32,100 bases of DNA from Nitrospirota bacterium (GTDB lineage Bacteria; Nitrospirota; Thermodesulfovibrionia; SZUA-242), in assembly GCA_027021335.1 (NCBI GenBank), contig JALUUO010000079.1, positions 1-32,100 of the forward strand, written 5' to 3'. The notes beneath the pieces are model-generated. The model was not told the DNA's origin. It saw only the letters and a program-made list of their open reading frames with translations, and did not search any database. The translations under genes were made by a program, and so were the position numbers. Of this stretch, positions 25,415-30,059 are shown piece by piece (the first letter of the stretch is position 1; every line of letters starts with the position of its first letter).

Positions 25415-26100
25415 TGCTGGAAAAACAGATAAAGACAAAACCTTCGGGATTAAAGAAGCAATGGATTACAGAGAACTTGGGTTTAAAAGTTATTTCCGTG
25501 CTTCTTGCAGGTTTTCTCTGGTACCTGGTGAACTTTACCGGTTCTTCAGAGGTGGCGGTGGAGGTTCCCATAAAATTTGAAGGAATACCGGCCAGCTATG
25601 AACTTTTGTGGGAAAGCAGCAAAACCGCTACTGTTTTACTTACCGGCAGGGAGCGTGTTATCAGGGGCGTTGTGCCGGAGATGGTGACCGTAGCCCTGGA
25701 CCTTTCCCACTCAAAAGCCGGGGAATCGTTTTACCCTCTTAACTTCAGCAACCTGAGACTTCCGCATCATGTTTCAGCGGTTAAAATTTCACCAACGGTA
25801 ATCAGAGTTCTTCTTGAAGAGATAATAACAAAGGAACTTCGTGTGGTTCCTAATCTGGCCGGCCGGCCGGCTAACGGGTTTGTGGTTGATAGCGTGGATA
25901 TTATTCCAGAGACGATTATTGCCGAGGGGGTTAAGCGTTTTCTTGAAGATGAAAAAGAGGTGTTTACGGAACTTGTGGATATAGAAGGTATCTCCAGAGA
26001 CACGAAATTCAAGGCAAAACTGGATATGAATGGTATGGGTTACCGTATAGATTCTGACACAGTAATGCTTACCGTCAAGCTTCGGCATAAAGAGGAGTGA
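25411..26100 (+). CDS. cdaR: CdaA regulatory protein CdaR (YbbR-domain protein)
   Basis: 229 residues. One N-terminal membrane helix (LGLKVISVLLAGFLWYLVNF, about 23-42) is followed by extracytoplasmic YbbR domains (about 50-225), with repeated beta-rich 'V.V...G.P..' units. It overlaps cdaA by 4 bases (ATGA). By analogy with characterised CdaR it binds CdaA and tunes c-di-AMP synthesis. Only about two YbbR repeats fit the length, fewer than in Bacillus. Confidence 0.85.
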   Translation: MMLEKQIKTKPSGLKKQWITENLGLKVISVLLAGFLWYLVNFTGSSEVAVEVPIKFEGIPASYELLWESSKTATVLLTGRERVIRGVVPEMVTVALDLSHSKAGESFYPLNFSNLRLPHHVSAVKISPTVIRVLLEEIITKELRVVPNLAGRPANGFVVDSVDIIPETIIAEGVKRFLEDEKEVFTELVDIEGISRDTKFKAKLDMNGMGYRIDSDTVMLTVKLRHKEE

Positions 26101-26108
26101 GTTTTAAG

Positions 26109-27470
26109 ATGAGAAAACTTTTCGGGACAGACGGCATAAGGGGCAAGGTTAACCATTACCCTATAACTGCTGAAATGGCACTAAGGCTGGGCCGTTCAGC
26201 GGCTTATGTGCTAAAGAAGGAAGGTAGAAGCAACCTAATTCTGATAGGAAAAGATACCAGGCTTTCCGGCTATATGCTGGAGAGCGCTCTCACAGCAGGA
26301 ATATGCTCTATGGGAATGAATGTAATTCTTGTGGGCCCGGTGCCTACTCCGGGGATCGCTTTTCTTACAAGAAGCATGCGGTGTGATGCCGGAATTGTGA
26401 TTTCCGCCTCCCACAACCCTTACGATGATAATGGAATTAAGTTTTTTTCCCACGACGGATTTAAACTTCCAGACGATGTGGAGCTTAAAATAGAGGATGT
26501 GCTTCTAAAGGACAGGCACGACACAGTTCGGCCAACAGGAGACCAGATAGGCAGGGCAAGGCGGATCGAGGAAGCTACTGGAAGGTACATTGAGCTTATA
26601 AAATCCACGATTCCAAAGGGTATGGATTTTGAAGGAATGAAAGTAGTGGTCGATTCGGCAAACGGCGCAGCCTATAAAGTTACACCAGTAGCGCTTAGGG
26701 AGCTTGGAGCTGAGGTGATATCAATCAATGATGATCCGGACGGAACAAATATAAACCTTGAGTGCGGAAGCCTTCATATAGATCAGCTCTCAAAAGCTGT
26801 TGCTGAGCACGATGCGCATCTTGGAATAGCGCATGACGGCGATGCCGACCGTACTTTATTTTGTGACGAAAAAGGAAAAGCGGTAGATGGCGATCAGATT
26901 ATGGGTCTATGCGCAACCAGTTTGAAGGCAGCCGGGCGGCTTAACAGGGATACTTTGGTAACCACGGTTATGAGTAACATCGGACTGGACCGGTATCTTG
27001 GAAAAAACGCTATAAATATGATTCGTACCAAGGTGGGCGACCGTTACGTGTCTGAAAAAATGATCGAGGGCGGCTATAACCTGGGCGGCGAGCAGTCGGG
27101 GCATGTTATTTTTATGGACGATAACACCACAGGCGATGGTCCTGTCACAGCTTTGAAGGTTATGTCGATTATTAAAAACACCGGTTATTCGCTCTCCGAG
27201 CTTGTGGCCCCGATAGAGCTTTATCCCCAGCTTTTGATCAATGTCAAAGTTCCAATGCAGCGTCCCCTGGATGATTTTCCGGAAATACAGGCGGCGATCA
27301 GTAATGCGGAGAAAAGCCTCAAGGATGGACGAATACTCGTGCGGCCCTCGGGCACCGAGCCAAAGGTGAGGGTGATGGTGGAGGGCGAGGACTCAAACCA
27401 GATAAAAACCGTGGCTGACGAAGTGGCCGGGGTTATAGAAAAGGCTGTATGGAATAGCCGCAGCTGGTAA
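26109..27470 (+). CDS. glmM: Phosphoglucosamine mutase
   Basis: 453 residues starting MRKLFGTDGIRGKVN; the ATG at 26109 is preferred over a GTG four codons upstream that overlaps cdaR, because AGGAG at 26093-26097 suits it and the family starts here. Active-site Ser in VISASHNPYDDNGIKFF (about 100), metal loop HDGDADRT, sugar-binding GGEQSGH and phosphate-binding RPSGTEPKVRVM. It converts glucosamine-6-phosphate to the 1-phosphate for peptidoglycan precursors. It is physically linked to the CdaA/CdaR pair, known elsewhere to regulate it. Confidence 0.96.
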   Translation: MRKLFGTDGIRGKVNHYPITAEMALRLGRSAAYVLKKEGRSNLILIGKDTRLSGYMLESALTAGICSMGMNVILVGPVPTPGIAFLTRSMRCDAGIVISASHNPYDDNGIKFFSHDGFKLPDDVELKIEDVLLKDRHDTVRPTGDQIGRARRIEEATGRYIELIKSTIPKGMDFEGMKVVVDSANGAAYKVTPVALRELGAEVISINDDPDGTNINLECGSLHIDQLSKAVAEHDAHLGIAHDGDADRTLFCDEKGKAVDGDQIMGLCATSLKAAGRLNRDTLVTTVMSNIGLDRYLGKNAINMIRTKVGDRYVSEKMIEGGYNLGGEQSGHVIFMDDNTTGDGPVTALKVMSIIKNTGYSLSELVAPIELYPQLLINVKVPMQRPLDDFPEIQAAISNAEKSLKDGRILVRPSGTEPKVRVMVEGEDSNQIKTVADEVAGVIEKAVWNSRSW

Positions 27471-27483
27471 GTTAACCGTTCAC

Positions 27484-27595
27484 AGGGTGCAGTTGTCAGG
27501 GTAGAGGAATATGGATAGGACCGATCAGACTGCTCAGACCGATAGGACCGATCAAATAATTTATAGCTTTTCCTGCACACTGACAACTGCACCCT
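27484..27595. mobile_element. Small non-coding element with 16-bp inverted ends and internal direct repeats (MITE-like)
   Basis: AGGGTGCAGTTGTCAG (27484-27499) is the exact reverse complement of 27580-27595. The 80 bases between contain GATAGGACCGATCA twice (27514-27527 and 27541-27554) plus the related AGACCGAT. No ORF is present. It fills the whole glmM-comEC gap, begins 13 bases after the glmM stop and ends 7 bases before the comEC start, leaving comEC without a clear ribosome site. It could form a long hairpin in the transcript. No target-site duplication is obvious. Confidence 0.5.
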
Positions 27596-27602
27596 CTTAA
27601 TT

Positions 27603-30059
27603 GTGAAAGCTCCGCTTCCGTTGGCCCTGGTCGCCTTTCTTGGCGGTATTATCTCGTTTCATCTGTTTCCTTACCTGCGTATCATTCCAGGCCTGCTCTC
27701 CGGCATTGTTCTGCTTTTTTTTCTTCGCAACGGGTTTCCTTCCTGGTTTAGTTATCGTTTTTTTCGAGCTTTTGGAATTGTTTTAATTATCTTTCTTGCC
27801 GGGTTTTTATACACATACTTGCGCCGGCCTCACCCGCCGCTATCCACACCGCCTGAAAAAGTGACTACGCTTGAGGGCGAAGTAGTTTCCGTTCCGGACA
27901 TTCGCAGTGACCGGGTACGCTTTATTATCCATACCCCTGACTTCGGCCGGGTTCGCGTAACCACTGAAAAGGGTTCGCCGGTTCGTTACGGCGACCTGGT
28001 AAGGCTGGATGGAAAGCTTAAAGAGCCCAGAGGATTTCTGAATCCGGGTCTTACGAATTACGGGGACAGGCTTCGCCGGCAGGGAATTTTCTATCGGGTA
28101 TGGTCCAAGGATGTCTTTGTTCTGGAAGAGGGAAAATCTTTGTGGGGCGCTTTTTTTGCCTTACGCGGCACTCTTGCCGGCCAAATGGAAGAGGACTTTA
28201 CTCCTGACGTGGCCTCCTTCCTGAAGGCGGTGATTCTTGGGTATTCGGATATTGATCAGGATCTAAGGGACGCATTCAACAGGTCCGGCACGGCACATAT
28301 TCTTGCGGTATCCGGCACACACCTTACTCTTCTTTCCGCGTCGCTTTTCCTTGTCTTTAGTCTGCTTATCCGCAGACTTCCAGCCTCTCTCTACTTGCGG
28401 CTCAGCCAGCGTGTCACAGCCACCGGCCTGGCCCTTCTTCTTTCACTGCCTCCGCTTTTCTTCTATACATTAATATCCGGGGCACGTATTCCCACTATTC
28501 GCTCACTGGTTATGATCCTGAGTTTTATCACGGCGGCGCTGCTGGGCAGAAGCAGGCACTGGCCTTCCGCATTGGCGCTGGCCGCGTTTGCCGTGCTTTT
28601 GTGGCAGCCGGCGGCTGTTTTTGATATATCCTTTCAGCTCACCTTTGTTGCAGTTCTGTCCATTTTGCTTCTGTCCAGGCGGTTTATTGATCAAGACGAA
28701 GATCCGGAGGTTGATCAAATCGGCCGGACGGATCAAAGTAGCGAAACCGAACAGCGATCCATAAAAAAGAAAACATTTAAGTACTTTAAGGCGCTGATAG
28801 TGGTATCTGTAGCGGCAGCCATCGGCACTGCGCCTCTGGTAGCCGGTTATTTTCATCGTATTTCGCTGATCTCACCGGTTTCAAACTTGTTAATAATGCC
28901 TTTAACCGGGTTTTTGGTGGTTCCGCTCGGGCTTCTTCATGCGTTTTTTCTGCTTGTCTTTGACAGAAGTTTTCTTGAGCCTGTTTTGCAGCCTCTTGTT
29001 TCGTTCTTTCTGGCGGTGGTTCGGTTTTTCGGCGATATGCCATACGCTTCATTTGCAGCAGGCTCTCCTTTATTGTGGCAGGTTGGTCTTTTTTACCTTG
29101 CGCTCTTTCTACCTTTTGCTCACAGGTATCGGGCCTTTATTCTTGCTGTGCTGGTCGTGTTTATCGCACTTACAGGTAATATGAGCAGGAGTTTCGAGCT
29201 TGCCACTTTGGATGTTGGAGAGGGTGAGTCGTTATATCTTCGTCTTCCTGATCAAAAGATCGTGCTGGTGGATACAGGCGGCCTCAGGTTCTATGATATC
29301 GGCTCCAGTGTTGTGGTTCCGTTTCTCCTTAACCGGGGTGTGCGAAGCATTGATAAGGTGATTCTTACACACAGCGACTTCGACCATGCAGGTGGACTTC
29401 GTTCAATAGTCGATTCCTTGAGCATAGATGAAGTCTGGTGGAACGGCTACTTTTCTAAGAAAGGTGTAAATAAAATTGCAAGACTTGCTGAAGATCTGGC
29501 TGAAATTTCTTTTCGCGTAGTGAAACGCGGCGATTATATGGAGGGCAAGAATTACCGGATCGAGGTGCTGCATCCCGATGAGGATTTTTCTGCACCATCT
29601 AAAAACAGGCGTTACAGGAGTTCGAACAACAACTCGCTTGTGCTTAAGCTTACCGTAAGCGGCAACACCTTTCTTCTGACCGGCGACATTGAGCGGACAG
29701 CTGAGGAGTATATTTTAAATAACGAAGGCGCCGGGCTTAAAAGCGACCTGCTTAAAGTGCCTCATCATGGCGGAAAGACATCTGCAACGCGTGATTTCCT
29801 GGCGTCTGTTGCTCCGAAAGTTGCGCTTATAAGCGCGGGTAAGAACAACAGGTTCCGGCATCCGCACATGGATGTTGTTAATAGGTTGAATAGTGCTGGA
29901 GCCCGGATATACCGTACAGACAGGGATGGAGCCGTGTTGGTTGATAAAAAAGACGGCCGCCTTCGTGTACGAACTTATAAGGACTTCAGGATGAAGCCAT
30001 GGTCGGGCTGGCAGGACGAGTGGAGAAATCTAAGAGTTCTTCTGGGATTTTACCAATAG
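27603..30059 (+). CDS. comEC: ComEC/Rec2 family DNA uptake channel
   Basis: 818 residues, full length. N-terminal membrane part and DUF4131-like soluble domain (about 1-180), central competence domain with many helices (about 190-520; GTAHILAVSGTHLTLL is the family hallmark), and a C-terminal metallo-beta-lactamase-like domain from about 530 with LDVGEGESL, LTHSDFDHAGGL, TGDIE and KVPHHGGKTS. It transports single-stranded DNA through the inner membrane during natural transformation. The start is a GTG without a good ribosome site. A hydrophilic loop near residues 362-390 carries three Asp-Gln pairs from GATCAA motifs resembling the upstream repeat. No other competence gene is in the window. 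Confidence 0.92.
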   Translation: MKAPLPLALVAFLGGIISFHLFPYLRIIPGLLSGIVLLFFLRNGFPSWFSYRFFRAFGIVLIIFLAGFLYTYLRRPHPPLSTPPEKVTTLEGEVVSVPDIRSDRVRFIIHTPDFGRVRVTTEKGSPVRYGDLVRLDGKLKEPRGFLNPGLTNYGDRLRRQGIFYRVWSKDVFVLEEGKSLWGAFFALRGTLAGQMEEDFTPDVASFLKAVILGYSDIDQDLRDAFNRSGTAHILAVSGTHLTLLSASLFLVFSLLIRRLPASLYLRLSQRVTATGLALLLSLPPLFFYTLISGARIPTIRSLVMILSFITAALLGRSRHWPSALALAAFAVLLWQPAAVFDISFQLTFVAVLSILLLSRRFIDQDEDPEVDQIGRTDQSSETEQRSIKKKTFKYFKALIVVSVAAAIGTAPLVAGYFHRISLISPVSNLLIMPLTGFLVVPLGLLHAFFLLVFDRSFLEPVLQPLVSFFLAVVRFFGDMPYASFAAGSPLLWQVGLFYLALFLPFAHRYRAFILAVLVVFIALTGNMSRSFELATLDVGEGESLYLRLPDQKIVLVDTGGLRFYDIGSSVVVPFLLNRGVRSIDKVILTHSDFDHAGGLRSIVDSLSIDEVWWNGYFSKKGVNKIARLAEDLAEISFRVVKRGDYMEGKNYRIEVLHPDEDFSAPSKNRRYRSSNNNSLVLKLTVSGNTFLLTGDIERTAEEYILNNEGAGLKSDLLKVPHHGGKTSATRDFLASVAPKVALISAGKNNRFRHPHMDVVNRLNSAGARIYRTDRDGAVLVDKKDGRLRVRTYKDFRMKPWSGWQDEWRNLRVLLGFYQ
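28689..28736 (+). repeat. In-frame GATCAA motifs in the comEC loop
   Basis: GATCAA at 28689, 28713 and 28731, spaced by whole codons and each read as Asp-Gln. The last is within GGACGGATCAAA, 11 of 12 bases identical to GGACCGATCAAA of the element before comEC. The loop is a variable, non-membrane segment. Confidence 0.35.

Follow-up and report, generated by a model that had tools for sequence, protein, structure and literature searches.

A heptad-armed, MITE-like element between glmM and comEC of a Nitrospirota bacterium, a candidate relative of PF05635-bearing elements

Heptanucleotide repeats are known in unrelated bacteria, without an agreed origin. In Beggiatoaceae, TAACTGA heptamers lie mostly just before start codons that have no ribosome-binding site, and polymerase slippage has been proposed as the origin of heptanucleotide repeats (PMC4679880). 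In Xanthomonas, GGGAATC heptamers form 70 and 75 inverted pairs in two species, and STRR are repeats of cyanobacteria (PMC4692102). Geobacter metallireducens has ‘class 3’ sites: 16 were aligned, fifteen of them with five tandem heptanucleotides (MTYCTGA) (PMC2700814). The intervening sequence (IVS) of Coxiella 23S rRNA holds an S23p ORF in a 28-bp stem-loop that is excised by RNase III; tandem heptameric GACAGAT repeats stand just before the S23p start, and the function of S23 proteins is stated as not known (PMC4990558). Two other described systems are the Neisseria CREE, of ~100–157 bp with inverted ends, whose hairpin in mRNA can be an RNase III site (PMC2649163), and the REPs, recognized by a GTAG/GTGG head (PMC2817692). 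Here and below, these descriptions follow excerpts of the papers cited. Among the matches listed, titles and abstract openings state no general link between PF05635 and inverted heptad arrays, most subscription journals lying outside this scope.

The element described here, between glmM and comEC, shares some traits with each of these systems. Like the Coxiella IVS (PMC4990558), it is an inverted-repeat stem-loop with heptameric repeats, which in Coxiella stand beside the S23p start; unlike the IVS, for which excision is reported, it lies in an operon instead of 23S rRNA and contains no ORF. It resembles CREE (PMC2649163) in size, inverted ends and insertion near genes, but CREE have characteristic ends and a core, often TA targets and an unrelated sequence, and the excerpted text does not mention heptads. 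With the TAACTGA (PMC4679880) and GGGAATC (PMC4692102) repeats it has in common the 7-bp period and a largely intergenic position. Those are near-perfect tandem units, whereas the units here are degenerate and set in a conserved arm, and no S23 link is mentioned for those repeats in the excerpts. The Geobacter class 3 sites (PMC2700814) are also tandem heptanucleotides, drawn as looping between strands, but of another dialect and interpreted there as sites of a global regulator. Finally, REP/BIME with RAYT (PMC2817692) are likewise intergenic palindromes in many copies; in contrast to them, our element lacks the head motif, and no Y1 gene bearing these arms lies near it.

Anatomy of the element and its heptad period

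The window, that is the whole 32,100-nt stretch analysed, belongs to a genome of 2.70 Mb in 121 contigs (G000), with Nitrospirae MAGs as the closest relatives. The original prediction saw, exactly between glmM and comEC, a perfect 16-bp inverted repeat enclosing 14-bp direct repeats, in an element without coding capacity that fills nearly the whole gap. This description holds: the two copies of the repeat agree at 16/16 positions, the element of ~130 bases has no ORF of its own, and it spans the gap from the glmM stop to the comEC start.

26097–27470, plus strand: glmM, the upstream gene (Pfam PGM_PMM I–IV), with stop TAA at 27468–27470
27471–27602, plus strand: glmM–comEC gap of 132 nt, filled by the element; at most 20 nt in 34 of 51 scored relatives
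27472–27513, plus strand: left arm, six heptads TTAACCG TTCACAG GGTGCAG TTGTCAG GGTAGAG GAATATG, read from the sequence, the period of 7 being tested over 22 elements
27484–27499, plus strand: left copy of the perfect 16-bp inverted repeat, AGGGTGCAGTTGTCAG, with 7 exact copies in G000
27515–27559, plus strand: 9-bp-periodic core ATAGGACCG ATCAGACTG CTCAGACCG ATAGGACCG ATCAAATAA, containing the 14-bp direct repeats (starts at 27514 and 27541)
27573–27607, plus strand: right arm heptads CTGCACA CTGACAA CTGCACC CTCTTAA TTGTGAA, stem base in the predicted fold
27580–27595, minus strand: right copy of the perfect 16-bp inverted repeat, the exact reverse complement of AGGGTGCAGTTGTCAG (16/16)
27603–30059, plus strand: comEC, the downstream gene, with a GTG start (Pfam Competence, DUF4131, Lactamase_B)

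By simple arithmetic, a perfect 16-bp pair within ~100 bp is expected ~0.001 times per 32 kb. The extended arms (27472–27509 and 27570–27607, 38 nt) reach 79% complementarity. They are built of degenerate 7-mers, mostly NNNNCAG, which are inverted in the right arm; the GTG start of comEC falls inside the outermost right heptad, TTGTGAA (27601–27607). The 14-bp direct repeats GATAGGACCGATCA (27514–27527 and 27541–27554, at a spacing of 27 bp) turn out to be part of the 9-bp-periodic core; in the gap the strongest lag is 14, followed by 9. The paralogue C40 has similar inner flanks without this core. Short core-like stretches (ATCAGACTG CTCAGACCG) can be seen by eye outside heptad hairpins at L157:1490–1540 and L164:1480–1520 (C85 and C17 of G000).

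Over 22 elements of the genome, the self-match at lag 7 is 0.355 vs 0.257 in shuffles (z = 10.8), and lag 14 gives z = 7.9. Masking of the search motif leaves lag 7 the highest (0.318 vs 0.257, z 5.5), lag 14 without excess (0.259) and lags 3–6 and 9 slightly raised (z 2.1–3.3). Of 19 arm matches, 11 have TTGTCAG at a distance of exactly one or two heptads (7 or 14 nt) from the inner flank. The elements have the tandem 7-bp period of heptanucleotide repeats (LSSR/STRR), in units that are degenerate and not identical.

The terminal inverted repeats are able to form a stem-loop: the predicted fold of RNA 27472–27607 has −47 kcal/mol and z = −5.4, equalled by 0 of 200 shuffles. Among 14 folded stop-to-start gaps, z is at or below −2.5 in only five. 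No intrinsic terminator (a GC-rich stem, with a loop of 3–8 only, followed by a T run) was found. In positions 27000–28000 no Rfam family reached its gathering score; a single match had E ≤ 1, and it falls elsewhere.

Copies of the element and the same sites in relatives

According to the original prediction, a sequence unique in the genome and conserved at this site in all relatives would point to a local regulatory hairpin. Neither holds: the element is multicopy, and most of the scored relatives have a short or empty slot. The 16-mer with at most 2 mismatches gives 17 matches in G000 vs 1 for the reversed control. An arm model built from 24 arms gives 32 matches at E ≤ 10 and 23 at E ≤ 0.01, most of them arms used in building it; 150 of 810 first-look candidates were scored, so that further copies may be missed. 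After merging of the arms, the genome holds ~22 elements, two of them degenerate (C42b, C30a); matches at C41, C44 and C16 were left out of the 22 as coding or chance by look.

Many of the elements reach from a stop codon close to the start of the following gene. Sixteen of the 22 lie between co-directional genes, at sites that include, besides glmM–comEC, a threonine-synthase-like gene/apgM, a RidA-type gene/der, tssC–tssE, tssE–tssF and gatA–gatB (Pfam on ten neighbours). Three lie between convergent genes and one after tRNA-Thr, before a convergent gene; the C40 element has a small putative partner ORF, and that of C17 is near a contig start with one neighbour known. No element was seen between divergent genes among the 22, a count without genome-wide background. 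Copies C76, C66, C30a and C80a overlap gene 3′ ends. A type VI secretion operon carries elements in both its tssC–tssE and tssE–tssF gaps (L163:1434–2089, G000 C24).

Beyond this genome, the exact 16-mer occurs in one of 294 other Nitrospirota genomes searched (G272). Allowing 2 mismatches yields 1–6 matches each in 16 relatives, none exact, and the arm model at E ≤ 0.1 yields 1–5 matches in 9 of 20 relatives. The search for a phage or plasmid vector of the window element gave no match. IMG/VR contains six exact 16-mers, five chance-like by eye and one in a heptad hairpin (L295). On that metagenomic contig, inverted heptads similar to TAACTGA come after the 16-mer, a short way ahead of an apparent start codon (L295:7320–7400; by eye).

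We then have the junction itself. Among 80 named relatives, comEC lies at most 2.5 kb downstream of glmM in 53; in 16 there are at least 1500 nt downstream but no comEC match, and 11 are too short to tell. The gap is at most 20 nt in 34 of the 51 relatives with a scored start, many of these being TGATG stop–start overlaps (for one of the 34, L128, the glmM stop is miscalled); L090 and L104, unscored by script, read as overlaps. In the empty-site comparison suggested in the original prediction, the slot is short or empty in these 34.

Gaps above 20 nt occur in 17 relatives, 14 of which were read: six contain a clear inverted-repeat insert and the other eight show none clearly. In the nearest relative (L064 of G002, GlmM 79%) the gap holds an unrelated multicopy hairpin, a C/G-rich sequence (L064:6350–6428) for which BLAST gives 41 matches in G002 (some of them counting both strands of a single place), no match in G001 and one weak match in G000. 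The L106 gap has heptads of another dialect (lag-7 0.63), those of L067 and L112 have 12-bp inverted repeats, and L117 and L127 have a long hairpin insert in common, in gaps of 350 and 280 nt (by eye). At gatA–gatB, the genes overlap by ATGA in G002 and are separated by an element in G000 (by eye); ten gatB loci were fetched, most with other upstream genes and hence not comparable. The empty site in relatives expected of a MITE is therefore seen twice, at glmM–comEC and at gatA–gatB.

At the window's junction the overlap between stop and start that most relatives have is lost. Here a hairpin, which holds the comEC start codon, has opened up an operon junction where most of the scored relatives have a short gap or an overlap. 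Because the element is multicopy in G000 and glmM and comEC abut or overlap in most scored relatives, it is an insert and not a conserved regulator. Relatives have this junction short, empty or filled by other sequences, which makes it a permissive slot that has been filled on more than one occasion.

The element is multicopy, short and without coding capacity, and has terminal inverted repeats, all as in MITEs. The MITE-type assignment of the original prediction is borne out in copy number, the lack of an ORF and the empty sites. In the rest the element does not look like a textbook MITE: the copies read showed no target duplication by eye, and no transposase-bearing partner with the same ends was seen near those of G000. 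Copies vary in their outer heptads, so that the ends are ill defined.

Heptad arms and PF05635 genes

In G272, the genome with the exact 16-mer, arms with outer heptads like those in the window (GTAACCG, GTGAACGG) enclose ATGAAATTTGAAGATTTAGATGTGTGGAAAAGAGC, reading MKFEDLDVWKRA. A second element, ~2 kb from the first and with similar arms, reads MKFEDSDVWKRA, so that MKFEDxDVWKRA stands just inside the arms in both G272 elements of the window dialect (2/2, in a 20-kb stretch). The same contig also bears a tandem CAGAACC/CAGAACT heptad array (L317:18660–18745). In G005, of another family, MKLEDSDVWKRA lies behind similar heptads. The G272 and G005 peptides resemble the N-terminus of the four-helix-bundle protein PF05635 (S23 / 23S-IVS). 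We scored them with a profile of 18 PF05635 N-termini, with 12,191 start peptides from 15 stretches of G000 as background. The G272 peptides score 18.3 and 11.3, above the best background value of 9.0; the G005 peptide scores 3.2, a value reached by 6 of the 12,191, and is a weak remnant. Pfam gave no match for two short remnant peptides, one each from G272 and G005.

An intact PF05635 gene (E = 5.9e-28) is present in G001, of the same family as the window's genome, with CAG-heptads before it and inverted heptads after it. This locus is a biased case, because it was fetched for its heptad array; the 1.84 Mb of sequence examined, overlaps counted, gave no other PF05635 match. In G000, no PF05635 gene was found in ~0.28 Mb plus the loci round the copies, and the PF05635 N-terminal motif, the only one scored, is absent from all 22 elements, window copy included. 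The window copy has no S23p ORF between its arms; remnants of one are seen only in G272 and, weakly, in G005. Phages gave no PF05635 match at 1e-5. Viral contigs have two PF05635 loci, without clear heptad arms by eye, and no viral contig carrying the G272 start sequence was found.

The link was tested on plasmids, with all 24 records that have a PF05635 match (22 of them cyanobacterial), each read at its best place of 26 places in all. For four records without usable annotation the gene limits were set by script, one of these (L344) being a 10-codon stub; several other records are truncated. The controls are 105 further genes on three of these plasmids; their flanks are often coding, a weakness of the control. 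An array was called where a 28-nt window had a lag-7 identity of at least 0.7, upstream at most 70 nt from the start. Upstream arrays accompany 16 of the 24 PF05635 records (8 are without) vs 0 of 105 controls, and downstream arrays 10 of 24 vs 2 of 105. At a threshold of 0.6 the counts are 17 vs 2 upstream and 10 vs 7 downstream, and at 0.8 they are 13 vs 0 and 8 vs 0 (24 records, 105 controls throughout). The two flanks match each other exactly in inverted orientation over 11 nt or more in 8/24 vs 0/105; with 9 nt required, in 10 vs 4. Mann–Whitney tests give p = 6e-9 upstream, 6e-5 downstream and 1e-6 for the inverted match, for records that are not independent: sorted by N-terminus, they form ~14 groups by eye, and an upstream array at 0.7 is found in 8 of these. 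Heptad arrays are physically linked to PF05635 genes in these plasmids.

By eye, the plasmid dialects differ (GGGAACA, GGGAAAA, AGGGTGT, CAGAATT, AGCTAAA). In L322 both arrays run in the same direction, not inverted, within 70 nt. On the cyanobacterial plasmids L322, L335 and L328 the S23 gene stands between CRISPR genes (cas6/cas4 twice, a cas10/Cmr3 gene once); of these three loci, the heptad arrays are clear in L322.

Heptad arrays are also widespread in the class. The pattern CAGN4 x4 is found in 51 of 61 class genomes, G000 included, with at least 10 matches in 35 genomes; in 28 of these the count is twofold that of the reversed control or more. For G000 the counts are 15 vs 0 in this control and for G020 136 vs 55; genuine heptad arrays can themselves match the control pattern, which raises it in some genomes. 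We read 30 array loci, one per genome. Only L253 has an inverted repeat above 11 bp (21 bp), so that inverted pairing of arrays is not general in the class; a PF05635 gene adjoins one of the 30. Another dialect, TTGTCAG GGATCAG GGTTCAG TTGTCAG / TGAAAAC TGTCAAC TGATAAC TGACACC, forms an inverted heptad hairpin in G020 that apparently adjoins an EF-Tu gene (L193/L242; by eye).

Origin of the element and its effect on comEC

We favour, with a probability of roughly 0.57, the reading that the window element is an ORF-less, MITE-like member of a class of elements with heptad arms, whose fuller members carry a PF05635 gene between the arms. From the G272 remnants inside the same or similar arms we infer that the window copy descended from a PF05635-bearing ancestor. 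A wider proposal, which we put forward tentatively and would not yet bet on, is that S23/PF05635 genes are the cargo, perhaps the agent, of widespread small mobile elements marked by inverted heptad arrays. The unexplained heptanucleotide repeats of cyanobacteria, Beggiatoaceae, Xanthomonas, Geobacter and Nitrospirota, and the window element, would then be arms or ORF-less derivatives, and the ribosomal IVS a special case in 23S rRNA. With heptad arrays and PF05635 genes physically linked, both the origin of the heptads and the function of S23 become testable.

The arms could instead belong to an independent family of heptad-array MITEs with no tie to PF05635: hairpins made by slippage or template switching and spread by host or IS activity, with PF05635 genes attracting or tolerating such arrays. 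The missing N-terminal motif in the 22 G000 elements, the 51/61 class genomes with CAG-heptad arrays, the single PF05635 gene at 30 array loci and the slippage proposed for heptanucleotide repeats (PMC4679880) all speak for such a family. Yet PF05635 start codons lie inside the same or similar arms in G272, and upstream arrays mark 16/24 plasmid records vs 0/105 controls; we regard it as rather unlikely. Movement by a Y1 (RAYT) transposase, as for a classical REP/BIME or an IS200-type MITE, would suit a palindromic, intergenic element in ~22 copies, and G000 has five Y1_Tnp matches, one ~1.6 kb from the copy on C7. However, the arm model finds nothing convincing at the five Y1 loci (best 4.8 bits, E 0.86), the ends vary, and the window element has neither the GTAG/GTGG head (PMC2817692) nor a RAYT gene flanked by the repeat. 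We reject a RAYT link for it, and the lack of arm matches at these loci leaves the REP-type assignment of the original prediction unsupported; this origin is improbable.

Similarly small is the chance of a conserved local hairpin regulating comEC as attenuator, terminator or thermosensor, in spite of the strong fold (z = −5.4) and the GTG start in the stem base: the same arms recur at ~21 other loci, the slot is short, empty or differently filled in relatives, and neither an intrinsic terminator nor an Rfam match at gathering score was found. Conservation of the hairpin at comEC is refuted, and its local co-option is possible. Least probable of all, the hairpin would fold away and leave the glmM stop adjacent to the comEC start, with translation still coupled. 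The two are indeed 9 steps apart in the fold despite 132 nt, but 22 of 100 shuffles bring them as close in the window, and the effect is weaker still in the other 13 gaps; with a stop–start path not shorter than in shuffles, we reject this coupling.

Most likely, an ORF-less member of the heptad-arm class entered the tight glmM–comEC junction in this lineage, filling the gap from stop to start. It would be transcribed with the operon and form a hairpin in the mRNA. By analogy with the IVS and the Neisseria CREE (PMC2649163), RNase III may cut this hairpin and so split glmM from comEC mRNA.

As the original prediction had it, the comEC GTG has no ribosome site: no Shine-Dalgarno 4-mer was found before it. 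By eye, this GTG aligns with the ATG start of the homologue in the nearest relative (L064). Since its start lies at the stem base without a Shine-Dalgarno sequence, comEC is probably translated weakly or in an altered way. The original prediction suggested that insertion may have uncoupled comEC from the upstream operon; the lost stop–start overlap and the missing Shine-Dalgarno sequence would fit this, but many genes here lack such a sequence, 16 of the 26 other window genes at the first start. One is present at the first start of 4/14 element-downstream genes vs 10/26 other window genes (Fisher p = 0.73) and, with later starts allowed, of 4/14 vs 14/26 (p = 0.19). On these values we reject a loss special to genes downstream of the elements. 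On the minus strand, we note a promoter-like site, TTGTCA-17-TAAATT, vs 0.2 expected.
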